This document shows positions 33,955 to 53,920 of a stretch of 64,000 nucleotides of DNA, in pieces (position 1 is the first letter of the stretch; each line of letters begins with the position of its first letter). This stretch comes from Micromonospora sp. WMMA1363 (lineage in GTDB: Bacteria; Actinomycetota; Actinomycetes; Mycobacteriales; Micromonosporaceae), in the NCBI RefSeq assembly GCF_030345795.1, contig NZ_JAUALB010000001.1, positions 2,227,001-2,291,000 of the forward strand, written 5' to 3'. The notes under the pieces are model-generated. The model did not search any database, was not told the DNA's origin, and saw nothing but the letters and a program-made list of their open reading frames with translations. Both the position numbers and the translations under genes were made by a program.

Positions 33955-35733
33955 CTACCTGGTCTGCTCCAACCAGGAGGCGTAGAGCAGCCCGTACACC
34001 GACTCGGGGTCGCGGACCAGCTCCTCGTGCGGGCCGCGCTGCACGATTCGGCCCCGATCCACCACGATCACCTCGTCGGCGGCCTGCGCGGTGGAGAGCC
34101 GGTGCGCGATGGCGAGCGTGGTCCGGCCCCGGGTCACCGCGTCCAACGTCCGTTGCAGCCGTACCTCGGTGGCCGGATCGACCGCGCTGGTAGCCTCGTC
34201 GAGCACCAACAGGTCCGGGTCCGCGACGTACGCCCGGGCCAGCGCGACCAGCTGACGCTCGCCGACGCTCAGCGCCTCGCCGCGCTCCCCCACCGGCGTG
34301 TGAAGGCCGGCCGGCAGCCCGTCCAACCAGTCGACCAACCCCAACTCGGTGAACGCGGCGACCAACTGCTCGTCGGTCAGTTCCGGGCGGGCGAAGCGGA
34401 CGTTCTCCGCGACCGTGGCGTCGAACAGGAACCCGTCCTGCGGCACCATCACCACCCGCGAGCGCAGCGAGGCGAACCGCACCTGCCGCAGCGGCACCCC
34501 GGAGAGCAGCACAGCCCCCTCGGTCGGGTCCATCAGGCGGGTGAGCAGCTTCGCGAACGTGGTCTTGCCGCTGCCGGTCTCGCCGACCACCGCCACCCGG
34601 CTCTTCGCCGGGATTTCCACGTCGATGGCGTGCAACACCGGCGCCCCACCCGGGTACGTGAACCCGACACCGGCGAAGCGGATGTCCAGCGGGCCCGCTG
34701 GCAGGTCCCGCCCCTGCTCGGCCGGGTCGGCGACGTCCGGCGCGACATCCAGCACATCGAGCACCCGACGCCAGCCGGCGATCGCGTTCTGCGCCTCGTT
34801 GAGCACCTCGGTGGCGATCTGCACCGGCTGGATGAAGAGGGTGACCAGGAACAGGAACGCGGTCACCTCGCCGATGCTGAGCGTACGATCGGCACCGAGC
34901 AGCACCCCGAGCACCACCACGCCGGCCAGGGCCAGCCCCGCCGCGATCTCCCCGGTCGAGCTGCCCAGGACGCTGATTCGGATGGCCCGCTGCTGAGCTC
35001 GCCGCTGGTTGTCGATCGCGTCGTCGAGCCGCCCGGCGGTCCGCCCGGCGATCCCGTACGCCCGGATCACCGGCGCGCCCACCACACTCTCGGCGATCAC
35101 GCCGAGCAGCGTGCCCGTGCGCTGCCGCACCACTGCGTACGCCCCGGCGAGGCGCCGCTGGAGGCCTCGGATCACGAACACCGCCGGGCCGAAGGCGGCG
35201 AACACCACCAAGGTCAGCTGCCAGGAGTACGCGAGCATGACGGCCGTGGTCACCACCAGCTGGCCGAGGTTGATCAGAAGGATCACGCCGCCCCACTGGA
35301 GGAACTGGGTGATCTGGTCGACGTCACTGGTCACCCGGGAGACCAGCGAGCCCCGCCGCTCGGACTGCTGGTGCAGCATCGACAGGTCGTGCACGTGCCG
35401 GAAGGCCCGCACCCGCACATTGGCCAGCGCGGTCTCGCTGACCGTGAACAGCCGGCGCATCATCAGATAGCCGCAGGTGGTGGTCACGGCGAGCACCGCG
35501 GTGGTGACGGCCACGACCGTCCACACCACGCCCAGCCGGAGACCGCCGGCGATGCCGTTGTCGATGCCCTGCTGCACCGCTACCGGCACGGCCGCCCGGC
35601 CGACCATGTAGACGAGGGCCAGACCGAGCGTGCCGGTCAGGCCGACCCGCAGCTCCGGGGAGAGCGCGAGACCGCGACGCAGCGTCCGCCAGGTTGACTC
35701 GGTCGCGTCCGGCGCCTCCAGCGCTGCGCTCAC
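33955..35733 (-). CDS. ABC exporter half-transporter, canonical Walker B subunit
   Basis: A 592-aa protein with an N-terminal six-helix exporter domain (residues about 30-320) and a C-terminal ATPase. Walker A is GETGSGKTT and Walker B is LLVLDEATSAVD with the catalytic Glu present. The signature is LSVGERQ instead of LSGGQ, thus degenerate. The partner encoded upstream has the opposite pattern, so the two should form a heterodimer with one active ATP site. The GTG at 35733 is the last start of the tandem 56-bp repeat array, and its Shine-Dalgarno (GGGGAG, 4 nt upstream) comes from the repeat. Substrate unknown. Confidence 0.94.
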   Translation of the reverse strand: MSAALEAPDATESTWRTLRRGLALSPELRVGLTGTLGLALVYMVGRAAVPVAVQQGIDNGIAGGLRLGVVWTVVAVTTAVLAVTTTCGYLMMRRLFTVSETALANVRVRAFRHVHDLSMLHQQSERRGSLVSRVTSDVDQITQFLQWGGVILLINLGQLVVTTAVMLAYSWQLTLVVFAAFGPAVFVIRGLQRRLAGAYAVVRQRTGTLLGVIAESVVGAPVIRAYGIAGRTAGRLDDAIDNQRRAQQRAIRISVLGSSTGEIAAGLALAGVVVLGVLLGADRTLSIGEVTAFLFLVTLFIQPVQIATEVLNEAQNAIAGWRRVLDVLDVAPDVADPAEQGRDLPAGPLDIRFAGVGFTYPGGAPVLHAIDVEIPAKSRVAVVGETGSGKTTFAKLLTRLMDPTEGAVLLSGVPLRQVRFASLRSRVVMVPQDGFLFDATVAENVRFARPELTDEQLVAAFTELGLVDWLDGLPAGLHTPVGERGEALSVGERQLVALARAYVADPDLLVLDEATSAVDPATEVRLQRTLDAVTRGRTTLAIAHRLSTAQAADEVIVVDRGRIVQRGPHEELVRDPESVYGLLYASWLEQTR

Positions 35734-35880
35734 CGGGCTCCCCTTTCGTTCGCGCCCGCGGGGCTCGCAAGCTCGCTCCTCGCGCTCACCGGGCTCCCCT
35801 TTCGTTCGCGCCCGCGGGGCTCGCAAGCTCGCTCCTCGCGCTCACCGGGCTCCCCTTTTCGTTCGCGCCCGCGGGGCTCG
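35731..35880 (-). repeat. tandem 56-bp repeat array with coupled mini-ORFs
   Basis: Two full 56-bp units (35731-35786, 35787-35842) are identical; a third (35843-35880) is truncated and has one extra T. On the minus strand each unit reads GTG AGC GCG AGG AGC ..., ends with AAAGGGGAGCCCG, and encodes MSARSELASPAGANERGAR then TGA. The TGA overlaps the next unit's GTG (GTGA). The chain runs from 35845 to 35789 to the ABC gene start at 35733. A related copy lies at 52786-52832. Confidence 0.85.
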
Positions 35881-35881
35881 A

Positions 35882-37768
35882 TCACCGGTCCACCTCCATC
35901 TCCAGGCCGGAGGTCACCGGCGGCATGACCTCGCCGTCGTACGTGCGCTGCTGGTCTTGCTCGGCCTCGGCCTGCTCGTACGCGGTGACCAGGTCGGCGT
36001 AGCCGGGAACGGTGGCGAGCAGCTCGGCGTGGGTGCCCCGGGCTACCACCCGCCCGTGCTGCAGGTAGATCACCTCGTCGGCGAGTGCGATCGTCGCCTG
36101 TCGGTACGCGACCACGAGGATGGACGCGGCCGCCGTCCCCCGCTCGCCCGGCGCGGCGCGCAGCCCGGCGAGGATCGCCGCCTCCACCCTCGGGTCGACC
36201 GCGCTGGTGGCATCGTCGAGCACGAGCAGGCGCGGCCGGCCAGCGAGGGCACGGGCCAGGGTGAGCCGCTGCCGCTGGCCGCCCGAGAGCGACGTGCCCC
36301 GCTCCCCCACCCGGGTGTCCAGCCCATCGGGAAGGGCGGCGACGAAGCCGTCCGCCTCGGCCAGGCGCAGCGCCGCCCAGACCTCGTCGTCGCCGATGCT
36401 CGGACGGTCCAGGGTGATGTTCGCCCGGACGGTGTCGTCGAAGACGAACGGCACCTGCGCGACCAGCGCCGCCGTTCGGGCGAGCGAGTCGGCGGTGAGG
36501 TCCCGCACGTCCACCCCGTCGATGGCGACCCTGCCGGCGCGCGGGTCGACCAGTCGGACGGCGAGGGAGGCGATCGTCGACTTGCCGGCGCCGGTCGGCC
36601 CGACCAGCGCCACCGTCGTCCCGGCCGGGACGGTGAAGCTGACCTCGCCGAGCACCTCGGCACCCGGCAGGTGCGCCTCAGCCGGCTCGTAGCCGAAGTG
36701 GACGTCGGTGAAGGTGAGCGGGGCCGGTCGGGGATCGACCGGATCGAGGACGCTGTGGCCGTACGGCATCTCGCCGGTGGCGTCGAGGACCCGCCGGACC
36801 CGGTCCCAGCCGGCGACGCTGCGCGGCAGCTCGGCCAGTACCCAGCCGATCGCCCGCACCGGGAACGCCAGCACGGTGAACAGGAACGCCACGCTGACCA
36901 GCTCGGCGACGCTGATCGCCCCCTGCCGCAGTCGGACTGTGCCGACCACCAGTACCGCGAGGGTGCCGAGGCTCGGCAGGGTCTCCAGCATCGGATCGAA
37001 GATTCCACGCAGCCGCCCGACCGACACCAGCGCGTCCCGCAGCTCCCGGGCGCGGCTGCCGAACCGGTTGGTCTCCTGCGCCTCGCGCCCCATGGTCTTG
37101 ACCACCAGAGCGCCGTCGAAACTCTCGTGGGCGATGCCGCTCACCTCCGCGCGCAGCCGCTGCGCGTGGGCCTGGCGGGGAGCCATCCGGCGGGAATAGA
37201 CCACGTTGAGCGCGAACAACGCCGGGAAGACGGCGAGACCGACCAGCGCGAGCGCCCAGTCGGTGACGAACAGCGACACCACCGCACCGACCAGCATCAC
37301 CAGGGTGCCGACCGCGAAGGGCAGGGGCGCGATCGGATGCCAGGCGGCCTCGACGTCGGAGTTGGCGTTGGACAGCAGCGTGCCGGTGGCGTTGCGGTGA
37401 TGCCAGGACAGTGGCAGGTCGAGGTAACGCCGGGTGACCCGGCGACGGTAGGCGGCCTGAAGCCGGAACTGCATGTAACCGGCGCCGAGCCGGCGGCCGA
37501 AGATGCCGACCACCCGCAGCACGCTGATGCCGAAGAGCGCGACGGCGGCCAGGGCGAGCGCACCGGTCTCCACCGACCCGTCCTCGACCGCTGGCACGAC
37601 CACGTCACCGACCACCGCGCCGACCACGTACGCGCTGGCGACGACCATCAGCCCGAACAGCACGCTGCCGGCCACCGCCACCGCGAAGATCCGCGGCTGT
37701 TCCCGGATCGCCCGGCCGAGGACGGCCAGCCCCCGCCAAACCACGTCCCGACTCGCCCTGCTCGCCAC
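35882..37768 (-). CDS. ABC exporter half-transporter, degenerate Walker B subunit
   Basis: A 628-aa exporter with six N-terminal helices (residues about 25-330) and a C-terminal ATPase. Walker A GPTGAGKST and the signature LSGGQRQR are canonical, but Walker B reads LLVLDDATSAVD with Asp in place of the catalytic Glu. This complements the partner at 33955-35733, as in TM287/288-type heterodimers. It starts with GTG at 37768, preceded by GGGGGATG. It lies upstream of its partner in one operon, joined by the 56-bp repeat array. Confidence 0.94.
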   Translation of the reverse strand: MASRASRDVVWRGLAVLGRAIREQPRIFAVAVAGSVLFGLMVVASAYVVGAVVGDVVVPAVEDGSVETGALALAAVALFGISVLRVVGIFGRRLGAGYMQFRLQAAYRRRVTRRYLDLPLSWHHRNATGTLLSNANSDVEAAWHPIAPLPFAVGTLVMLVGAVVSLFVTDWALALVGLAVFPALFALNVVYSRRMAPRQAHAQRLRAEVSGIAHESFDGALVVKTMGREAQETNRFGSRARELRDALVSVGRLRGIFDPMLETLPSLGTLAVLVVGTVRLRQGAISVAELVSVAFLFTVLAFPVRAIGWVLAELPRSVAGWDRVRRVLDATGEMPYGHSVLDPVDPRPAPLTFTDVHFGYEPAEAHLPGAEVLGEVSFTVPAGTTVALVGPTGAGKSTIASLAVRLVDPRAGRVAIDGVDVRDLTADSLARTAALVAQVPFVFDDTVRANITLDRPSIGDDEVWAALRLAEADGFVAALPDGLDTRVGERGTSLSGGQRQRLTLARALAGRPRLLVLDDATSAVDPRVEAAILAGLRAAPGERGTAAASILVVAYRQATIALADEVIYLQHGRVVARGTHAELLATVPGYADLVTAYEQAEAEQDQQRTYDGEVMPPVTSGLEMEVDR

Positions 37769-37928
37769 GCCATCCCCCGCCGTAGGCCACGGTTGTCCCT
37801 CCCATCCTTACGCGTCGGGGCGTGCTCCGCCGACCCGGGGAAGGACCTGTGACCCGACGGCCGTGACCCGTCGTCCGCGCCCCGCCCGCGACGGTGCGCC
37901 CTCGGCCGTCGACGCATACCATCGAGCC

Positions 37929-38558
37929 ATGCCGCGCTACGCCCGATCGGAGCGCCAGGCGCTCGCCGACCTTTTCCAGACGCTCGGACCGGACGCACCG
38001 ACGCTCAACGACGGCTGGACGACCCGTGACCTCGCCGCCCACCTGGTGCTCCGGGAGCGGCGCCCCGACGCGGCCGGGGGCATAGCGCTTCCGCCGCTAC
38101 GGGGGTACGCGGAACGGGTCCGCCTCCGGATCGCCGCCCGGCCCTGGCCCAGCCTGGTCGACCAGGTACGCCGGCCGCCGGCGTGGAGCCCGGTCAGCAA
38201 CCCGCTGACCGACGAGTTGGCCAACACGATGGAGTTCTTCGTCCACCACGAGGACGTCCGGCGCGGGCGGCCGGACTGGCTGCCCCGCGACCTGCCGGCC
38301 GGGCTGCACCGGGCACTCTGGAAGCGGGCGACCGCGCTGGCCCGGGTGATGCTCCGCCGCTTTCCGGCCGACGTGCTGATCCAGGCACCCGAGTATGGGG
38401 AACTGTCGGCCGGGCGGGGCGGGGAACCGGTCCGGGTGGTGGGACCGCCGGGCGAGCTGGCGCTGTTTCTCACCGGCCGGCAGCGGGCGGCGCGCGTCCA
38501 GGTCGACGGGCCGGCCTTGCTGGCAGACCGACTCCGGGCCGCCCGGCTGGGCATCTGA
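37929..38558 (+). CDS. TIGR03085-type metal-binding protein (mycothiol-dependent isomerase fold)
   Basis: A 209-aa protein with the DinB-like four-helix fold of the actinobacterial maleylpyruvate-isomerase family. Visible features are RQALADLFQTLGPDAPTLNDGWTTRDLAAHLVLRERRPDA (N-terminal helix and first His) and NTMEFFVHHEDVRRGRP (second and third His), which would bind one metal ion. Members are thought to use mycothiol. The reaction is unknown. The ATG at 37929 has only a weak ribosome-binding site. Confidence 0.85.
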   Translation: MPRYARSERQALADLFQTLGPDAPTLNDGWTTRDLAAHLVLRERRPDAAGGIALPPLRGYAERVRLRIAARPWPSLVDQVRRPPAWSPVSNPLTDELANTMEFFVHHEDVRRGRPDWLPRDLPAGLHRALWKRATALARVMLRRFPADVLIQAPEYGELSAGRGGEPVRVVGPPGELALFLTGRQRAARVQVDGPALLADRLRAARLGI

Positions 38559-52785: not shown

Positions 52786-52832
52786 CCTTTCGGTCGCGCC
52801 TGCGGGGTTCGCGAACTCACTCCACGCGCCCC
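52786..52832 (-). repeat. degenerate copy of the 56-bp intergenic repeat
   Basis: On the minus strand it reads GGCGCGtGGAGtGAGtTcGC ... CCCCGCaGGCGCG ... CGAAAGG, matching the array at 35731-35880 at most positions (lower case marks differences). It fills the hisC-hisB junction and ends in the Shine-Dalgarno region of hisB. Confidence 0.7.
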
Positions 52833-52834
52833 CA

Positions 52835-53920
52835 CTAGAGCTTCTCCATCGTCAGCTTGTCCATCGCCGAGAGAAAGGCGTCGGTCTCGGCGGGGGTTCC
52901 GGCGGTGACCCGCAGCCAGCCGGGCAGGCCGACGTCGCGGACGAGAACCCCGGCACCGAGCAGGGTGCGCCAGGCGGCGGCCTGGTCACCGCCGGTGGCG
53001 AAGAGCACGAAGTTGGCGTCGCTGTCCGCCACCCGGTGGCCCCGGGCCCGTAGCTCGGCCACGATCCGATCCCGCTGGCTCATGATCGCCGAAACCGTGC
53101 CGAGCAGGGCGTCCCGCGACGCGAGGGCCGCGCGGGCGGCGGCCTGGGTGAGCGCCGACAGGTGGTACGGCAGCCGCACCAGCTGCACGGCCGCCACCAC
53201 CGCCGGGTCTGCGGCGAGGTAGCCCAGCCGCCCACCCGCGAACCCGAACGCCTTGCTCATCGTGCGGGTGACCACCAGCCGGGGGTGCCCGCACAGTACC
53301 GTGAGGGCGCTCGCCGTGCCGGGCCGGGCGAACTCGGCGTACGCCTCGTCCACCACCACCATGCCGGGTGCGGTGTCAAGCACCGCCGCCACCACCGCCG
53401 GGTCGAGCGCGGTCCCGGTCGGGTTGTTGGGCGAGCAGAGGAACACCACGTCGGGCCGGTGCTCCCGGACCTGGGCCACCGCCTCGTCGGCGGTCAGTCC
53501 GAAGTCGACCCCGCGTCGGGCGGGCACCCATGTGGTGCCGGTCCCGAGCGCCAGCAGCGGGTGCATCGAGTACGCCGGCGTGAAGCCGAGCGCGGTGCGT
53601 CCCGGCCCACCGAAGACCTGCAACAGCTGCTGCTGGACCTCGTTGGAGCCATTCGCCGCCCACACGTGGTCACCGGTGAGCCCATGCCCCAGATAGGCCG
53701 CCAGGTCAGCGCGGAGCGCCACCGCGTCGCGGTCCGGGTAGCGGTTCAGGTCACGCAGCTGGGCCGCGAGCGCCTTCGCGATCGCCTCGGCCACCGGCTC
53801 GGGCACCGGGTACGAGTTCTCGTTGGTGTTCAACCGGACCGGCACGTCCAGCTGCGGCGCCCCGTACGGGGACAGCCCCCGCAGGTCGTCGCGGATCGGC
53901 AGGTCGTCGAGCGTGGTCAC
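52835..53920 (-). CDS. hisC: histidinol-phosphate aminotransferase
   Basis: A 361-aa PLP enzyme. The PLP lysine is in [20 protein letters not shown]; other motifs are [25 protein letters not shown] and [13 protein letters not shown]. The start is GTG at 53920, overlapping the stop of hisD (GTGA). It uses glutamate as amino donor. Length is normal. Confidence 0.97.

Follow-up and report, generated by a model that had tools for sequence, protein, structure and literature searches.

Array at the junction of two exporter genes

The 64,000-nucleotide stretch of Micromonospora sp. WMMA1363 analysed here (the window; contig NZ_JAUALB010000001.1, positions 2,227,001 to 2,291,000) carries a tandem array of 56-bp repeat units between two codirectional genes for ABC exporter halves. 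The unit is not local to this junction, and the array is one of many formed by a dispersed family of repeats whose units each contain a mini open reading frame (mini-ORF). The features at the junction and a second copy of the element in the window are listed in window coordinates, with matches in the strain's own genome prefixed G000.

33955..35733, minus strand: ABC exporter half 2, the downstream gene, 592 aa, with its start codon GTG at 35733.
35730..35885, minus strand: 51-codon frame from GTG 35885 to TGA 35732-35730, overlapping the exporter 2 GTG by 4 nt (from translation).
35734..35789, minus strand: full 56-bp unit B, with mini-ORF 35789-35730, whose TGA overlaps the exporter 2 GTG (Tandem Repeats Finder, TRF, and covariance-model match G000:C1:2262746-2262791).
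35790..35845, minus strand: full 56-bp unit A, with mini-ORF 35845-35786 (TRF and covariance-model match G000:C1:2262802-2262847).
35846..35885, minus strand: truncated first unit, 40 bp, whose GTG at 35885-35883 overlaps the exporter 1 stop codon by 4 nt (from sequence).
35884-35882, minus strand: exporter 1 stop codon TGA, overlapping the GTG of the truncated unit.
35882..37768, minus strand: ABC exporter half 1, the upstream gene, 628 aa (open reading frame list; Pfam ABC_membrane 2.9e-34, ABC_tran 1.4e-27).
52790..52835, minus strand: second, degenerate copy of the element (covariance model, 36.8 bits; sequence).

TRF called a period-56 array at 35726-35880 (2.8 copies, 98% match) in which units A and B are identical, with no mismatch in 56 positions. 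The GTG of each full unit opens a 60-nt frame of 19 codons (VSARSELASPAGANERGAR followed by the stop) whose TGA overlaps the next GTG, that of unit B ending on the GTG of exporter 2 at 35733, and a Shine-Dalgarno-like (SD-like) stretch, AAAGGGGAG, could be recognized by eye in the unit. These analyses confirmed the original prediction of tandem 56-bp units with an SD-like stretch, a GTG, a 19-codon ORF and a GTGA overlap. A 27-nt part of the unit, searched with up to three mismatches, had two matches in the window and none in 100 shuffles.

The truncated 40-bp unit at 35885-35846 had gone unnoticed, and it changes how the array is entered. The relay had been proposed to run from GTG 35845 to GTG 35789 and on to GTG 35733, of which the last two links stand, but GTG 35845 lies 36 nt from the stop codon of exporter 1 and the link from that gene bypasses it, since the 51-codon frame starts at the GTG of the truncated unit, passes GTG 35845 in a different phase and joins GTG 35789 in frame. 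Although its first unit carries a deletion, the array has a length of 152 bp, which is 2 modulo 3, and the 51-codon frame is predicted to relay directly between exporter 1 and exporter 2. A consensus scan of positions 35600-38200 for a promoter or terminator around the array was negative, with a sigma-70-type consensus that may not suit this organism. Exporter 2 (Pfam ABC_tran 2e-28, ABC_membrane 7.8e-27) had a match in all 61 genus genomes searched. At the degenerate copy the flanking genes are also codirectional, with an upstream TAG just before the copy and a downstream ATG in frame with the GTG at the copy start.

A dispersed family in Micromonosporaceae and its placement

The 19-nt core of the unit, with up to two mismatches, had 29 matches in the strain's own genome and none for a reversed control. 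With one mismatch it was found in 60 of 61 genus genomes (own genome counted), and it occurred in 43 of the 121 genomes of a family-wide draw, covering 19 of 44 genera. Named genome records held at least 120 stretches with the core, and the 80 of them listed with titles comprised 67 from Micromonospora, four from Salinispora, one each from Plantactinospora and Catellatospora, five from unnamed Micromonosporaceae, one from Promicromonospora and one from Nocardioidaceae. Two longer versions of the core, GTGCAGCGMAGCGGAGC with 3 extra nt and another with 5, are members of the same family. The covariance model R1, built on 48 units (alignment A2), gave 71 matches in the own genome at E ≤ 0.01, 69 of them on the main contig, where they form 34 arrays of one to six units, and the remaining two on a 3-kb contig, G000:C12. 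This contig (3022 bp) consists of two inverted copies of the gap-pgk junction almost identical to C1:2165708, looks like a duplicate of that site and is probably an assembly artefact. The class-wide model search matched 4 of 148 genomes: the own genome and one congener had 42 scored units apiece, and a further two genomes gave a single weak match apiece. Rfam returned no match at gathering score across five sources (the window, L029, L094, L021 and L129). The literature searched by titles and abstract starts held no recognised account of such an element in Micromonospora or Salinispora, and none of its papers was retrieved with the mini-ORF peptide or two DNA words, which is weak evidence given that subscription papers lay mostly outside coverage.

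Placement relative to genes was surveyed with gene frames called by third-position GC, a rough method. From 213 arrays, 12 with short flanks were dropped, leaving 201 non-duplicate arrays with flanks; 20 mycobacterial loci were excluded from every array count. Both neighbours lay in the element's direction (++) in 142 of the 201, and the 59 other arrays were -+ (43), +- (10) or -- (6). Twelve of the 142 had no called start. About half of the arrays start exactly on the upstream stop codon, and 102 of the 201 were ++, had a called gene start and had their upstream stop on the first TGA of the element; this exact-junction set leaves out arrays whose stop is off the element's TGA. In a first set of 153 clusters (166 minus five with no core copy within one mismatch and eight with short flanks), 101 were ++, the stop coincided with the element's TGA in 70 of these and the next commonest offset was seen in four; 18 duplicate clusters were dropped from an early count of distances. 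A script assigned the 34 arrays of the own genome as 25 ++, eight -+ and one +-, miscalling the exporter array as -+, probably because its truncated unit disturbed the upstream window. This tabulation of copies had been set beforehand as a test of the relay idea, against which a majority of copies between convergent genes or away from operons would have spoken; with 142 codirectional arrays, no such majority was seen.

The neighbours at five sites could be identified from their best family matches as nuoC/nuoD, gap/pgk, argB/argD, pyrR/pyrB and purK, with the naming resting on partial proteins of 200 aa and several scores below the curated cut-off. At one of these sites the argB frame continues across two units spaced 54 bp apart and terminates on the ATG of argD, and in-frame copies can lengthen N- or C-termini (purE, argB). 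A leaderless start signal (TANNNT 5-8 nt upstream) was present in 3 of the 31 -+ arrays with a start codon there and in none of 121 ++ arrays, and the leaderless start was rejected as a general target.

Empty and occupied junctions, phase and the predicted relay

Thirty nuoD loci and 30 exporter loci were read, and empty and occupied sites were counted by eye from the junction sequences. Nineteen of the 30 nuoC-nuoD junctions are empty, reading ...CCAGTGA in 15 and ...CCAATGA in four, so that all are GTGA or ATGA stop/start overlaps. Of the 11 occupied junctions, nine have gained one insert, exactly 56 bp (five) or 59 bp (four) long, both lengths being 2 modulo 3, and two are composite. The exporter junction was empty in 11 genomes, degenerate in one and occupied in 18; a recount of full cores in these species-level genomes gave none in 12, one in nine, two in eight and three in one. 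Mapped on a tree of a single gene, nuoD, occupancy requires eight changes, at least five of them forced by well-supported branches, and is a case of patchy gain or loss at one site. Inserts there include two types that differ in their arms (GTGAGCG and GTGATCGG), plus a third with the longer core, which suggests several separate insertions. The empty nuoC-nuoD sites shown have GGAGG 8 nt before the start codon, which after insertion faces the GTG of the mini-ORF.

Among ++ arrays, 22 have the form GTGA...ATGA and 72 the form GTGA...GTGA. Since the left end is GTGA even at ATG gene starts, this tetranucleotide probably belongs to the element. The simplest reading as a target-site duplication was rejected on the same counts, with a later change of start codon being possible. 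The common layout of an occupied site is GTGA, paired arms around the core, an SD-like stretch and the start codon. Upstream of the gene start, 118 of 130 arrays have an SD-like match of at least 4 nt, compared with 63% in window shuffles and 34 of 130 windows inside genes.

In single units whose upstream stop is the TGA, the spacing between first GTG and gene start was 2 modulo 3 in 64, 0 in six and 1 in one (n=71), phase 2 being that of a 4-nt overlap. The sole phase-1 unit, L025, sits on the suspect contig C12, and with fewer start codons allowed the counts became 64, six and none (n=70). The lengths concerned, in 70 single-unit arrays, were 56 in 41 and 59 in 21, the rest being scattered. 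A reading of the non-56 distances as having no phase preference was dropped, since, with frames called from the downstream gene, hardly any single unit that has its stop in place falls in the third phase. Across the exact-junction set, an unbroken route to the gene start was found in 90 of 102 arrays, by 4-nt overlaps alone in 78 and by in-frame fusion in 12. When one nucleotide was deleted in silico about 14 of the 102 kept a route, and when two were deleted about 86 did, almost all by fusion. The overlap geometry, attributed in the original prediction to a 60-nt ORF with a 4-nt overlap, held in 61 of 89 tandem links and failed in the others, 20 being fusions and eight neither. Counted by array (n=55), tandem links were in phase 2 in 36, phase 0 in 14 and phase 1 in five. 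Core and period lengths are partly correlated, 36 of the 72 links with a core of 24 having period 56 and 21 of the 24 with a core of 27 having period 59, and the longest core tends toward a shorter tail, as the eight links with core 29 mostly have period 59 (five, against one with 62 and two with 60).

We consider it likely, from these patterns of sequence and placement, that the element is a dispersed Micromonosporaceae repeat, located mainly between codirectional genes, whose mini-ORF lets ribosomes cross the insertion and restart downstream, keeping the flanking genes coupled. After insertion the native SD of the gene would serve the GTG of the mini-ORF, and the mini-ORF would hand the ribosome, on terminating, to the SD-like stretch of the element and to the gene start. 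The element may spread as a low-damage selfish repeat, the relay being the putative reason why the insertion is tolerated, and extra units could arise by unequal recombination between copies, adding relay steps. The original proposal of a relay module is in this respect partly supported: its geometry is real and recurs in most exact-junction arrays, but at the exporter junction itself the link from exporter 1 runs through a truncated unit that it did not describe. There is no evidence here that the element is a regulator recruited for the exporter.

Several observations weigh against this reading or reduce the force of the counts. Twelve of the 102 exact-junction arrays reach the gene by neither chain nor fusion, and among the 89 tandem links 20 are in-frame fusions, seven are in the third phase (five stopping within 20 nt past the next start and two before it) and one stops early. 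Half of the core-24 links (36 of 72) have a period other than 56, and a core of 25 with period 57 (3/3) and a core of 28 with period 58 (2/2) are not 2 modulo 3. The 2-modulo-3 phase is partly a founder effect, copies descending from units that were already 56 or 59 bp long, and with orthologous sites recurring across species and lengths being inherited, the phase counts are not independent events. The mini-ORF is open in 192 of 200 units, but the three minus-strand frames are open in 189, 194 and 192 as well. A loose relay simulation, with links from -16 to +12 nt, passed all 130 arrays and also 90% of those with shuffled interiors; it does not discriminate and was given no weight as support. 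In the own genome, by script, the stop lies exactly at the element's TGA in just 18 of 34 arrays, and some copies lie elsewhere, antisense upstream of a presumed prfB or in frame inside a presumed pyrC.

Known repeats, alternative explanations and further copies

The original prediction held that no described element follows such a logic, which is incorrect: mycobacterial interspersed repetitive units (MIRUs) share it. According to a 2025 review (PMC12548453), which cites Supply et al. 1997, MIRUs appear to be mobile and to insert at start codons, with an internal ORF coupled to the gene at a -4 nt spacing, both their movement and the relay of ribosomes by the mini-ORF being put there as appearance or likelihood. 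PMC3914561 describes units of 46-101 bp at 41 loci in one reference genome, and MIRUs underlie a standard typing scheme for tuberculosis strains. As a positive control, an exact search with a MIRU word hit 11 of 200 genomes of the order, all of one genus (presumably Mycobacterium), with no hit among the 29 Micromonosporaceae genomes included. At 12 of 20 mycobacterial loci with the word, a DTGA lay within 32 nt upstream of it. In eight of the 20 the mini-ORF ended on the next DTGA, giving units (mini-ORF minus the 4-nt overlap) of 50, 53 or 77 bp, and four other mini-ORFs continued into longer frames. One of the coupled loci precedes a response-regulator gene, whose product we take to resemble RegX3 from its N-terminus.

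Because the coupled mycobacterial units end on the next DTGA and have lengths of 2 modulo 3, like the Micromonosporaceae units of 56 and 59 bp, the same arithmetic and logic hold for MIRUs. Set beside the accounts of MIRUs, the Micromonosporaceae element is likewise a short dispersed repeat, single or in tandem (periods of 53-62 bp across the family; 69 units in 34 arrays), oriented with its flanking genes (142 of 201 arrays), with an internal ORF that overlaps the flanking stop and start by 4 nt (78 of 102 by chains, 12 by fusions and 12 by neither) and with insertion into an existing start codon or stop/start overlap (19 of 30 nuoC-nuoD sites being empty GTGA or ATGA). It differs in showing no sequence match, the MIRU word being absent from the 29 Micromonosporaceae genomes and R1, at E ≤ 0.1, giving no match in five MIRU-bearing genomes, a negative that by the tool's own warning carries little weight when taken by itself. 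It also differs in its 7-nt arms, which tend to pair, and in its several core lengths; by eye, MIRU units such as L254 look complementary at GCGCCG/CGGCGC in many copies. The two elements thus seem to work alike, with their relatedness unsupported by sequence search, and a MIRU-type logic appears to reside in an element not found in the five MIRU-bearing genomes searched. A tentative proposal, to which we give slightly less than even chances, is that mobile repeats seeking start codons have converged on the MIRU solution a second time, in a lineage unrelated by sequence. Such an element would be a hairpin with main lengths of 2 modulo 3 that brings along a GTGA, a mini-ORF and an SD, and it could enter the stop/start overlap of any operon and be traversed by ribosomes.

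Repetitive extragenic palindromic (REP) elements, served by REP-associated tyrosine (RAYT, Y1) transposases, are short dispersed hairpin repeats without a transposase gene of their own. The Micromonosporaceae element shares these traits but differs in lying in sense orientation at stop/start overlaps with the phase kept. Palindromic elements of Rickettsia can lie in frame inside genes, as some Micromonosporaceae copies do, but most Micromonosporaceae arrays are intergenic. We regard as unlikely the explanation that the element is a REP-like structured repeat whose hairpin is functional, in mRNA stability or processing or as a recombination substrate, its position at stop/start overlaps being merely where insertion does least harm.

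The evidence on this point comes largely from the arms. The core is flanked by 7-nt arms that at junction copies read GTGAGCG and CGCGAAC, forming five standard pairs around a tandem G-A mismatch; off junctions the arms are often different yet complementary (for example GCGCGGG/CCCGCGC upstream of the presumed prfB), and those of the Nocardioidaceae record, GCGACATC and GATGTCGC, are complementary one column off the common register. Over 81 distinct units, 63.3% of arm cells pair against 55.6% in shuffles, the covariation score is 0.241 against 0.123 and 53 cells are changed on both sides against 24.4, with none of 500 shuffles as high in each case and the true register the best of seven on pairing and covariation score. 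The pairing holds when each distinct 5' arm is represented by a single row (37 rows, with 4.16 of 7 positions paired against 3.49) and when GTGA arms are also left out (31 rows, 4.16 against 3.41), with 0 of 2000 shuffles as high in either. This tendency, together with the copies off junctions and an excess of G-T over A-C pairs (16 to 3) in 37 junction-type units, as a fold of the sense strand would give, favours a functional hairpin. However, the other two of the five arm measures, which according to the tool are those least inflated by relatedness, were unremarkable (seven arm pairs changed on both sides against 5.8, 79/500 as high; 16 further pair types against 15.3, 231/500), G-T exceeded A-C by just 30 to 22 over all 81 units, RNAalifold did not predict the arms, and the Rfam search was empty. 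Neither the 64:6:1 phase bias nor the SD-like stretch is predicted by such a repeat, and a Y1 transposase was rejected as mobiliser, with no match to Y1_Tnp (PF01797) in the own genome in a search that was positive in 5 of 14 control genomes. For the arms themselves, mobilisation or a fold in the mRNA is the probable role.

Copy number could instead be adaptive, with selection on the number of units tuning how much of each exporter half is made relative to the other, and it does vary, from none to three full cores at the exporter junction between genomes and from one to six units between arrays of the own genome. The module is dispensable, as 12 of 30 exporter junctions lack a full core, and the same element lies between unrelated housekeeping genes; we hold this explanation to be very improbable. 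A function of the mini-ORF peptide itself is scarcely credible, its frame being open in 192 of 200 units but the changes in the 37 junction-type units (20 synonymous, 47 nonsynonymous and no stops) falling between those of the other two frames (11, 49 and 7; 28, 39 and 0), which gives no sign of a conserved peptide, and apex variants encoding different peptides.

Within the literature covered, and as far as our searches reach, the following are new: the family of repeats in Micromonosporaceae, the occurrence of its junctions in empty and occupied states, main length classes that are 2 modulo 3, and the paired arms. The element would represent a second MIRU-like family, in soil bacteria, and the empty and occupied forms of one junction in related species make the proposed relay directly testable, natural alleles with none or one unit being available at nuoC-nuoD and with none to three at the exporter junction. 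In-frame copies that add terminal extensions, as at purE and argB, could also shift called start codons and are a warning for annotation. The paired arms provide a concrete feature with which to seek the mobilising machinery. If the convergent lineage proposed above is real, ribosome relay would offer transposon-like DNA a general means of persisting within operons, and the paired arms could hint at an enzyme specific for stop/start overlaps.

Some individual copies depart from the common layout. At G000:C1:5283715-5283814 (L308), hairpin copies lie antisense upstream of a gene that we take for prfB from its N-terminus, and L308-like copies with different, largely complementary arms occur in related species (L116, L118, L123, L144, L150 and L157). 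A diverged copy at G000:C1:519424-519469 (L301) is in frame inside an open frame taken by eye for pyrC. At an apparently orthologous site (L090, L094, L102, L112, L114, L133, L141, L149 and L174, with the flank CGACGGTACACCGTG in those shown), the element lies off any stop/start junction by the gene calls used. At G000:C1:2896551-2896596 (L027), GGGA replaces GTGA and a single open frame takes in the frames on both sides of the copy. Other Micromonosporaceae genera repeatedly contain a related core, GATGAGCGAGCTTGCGAGC, for example in genomes G105 and G160, and it may mark a sister family of repeats.

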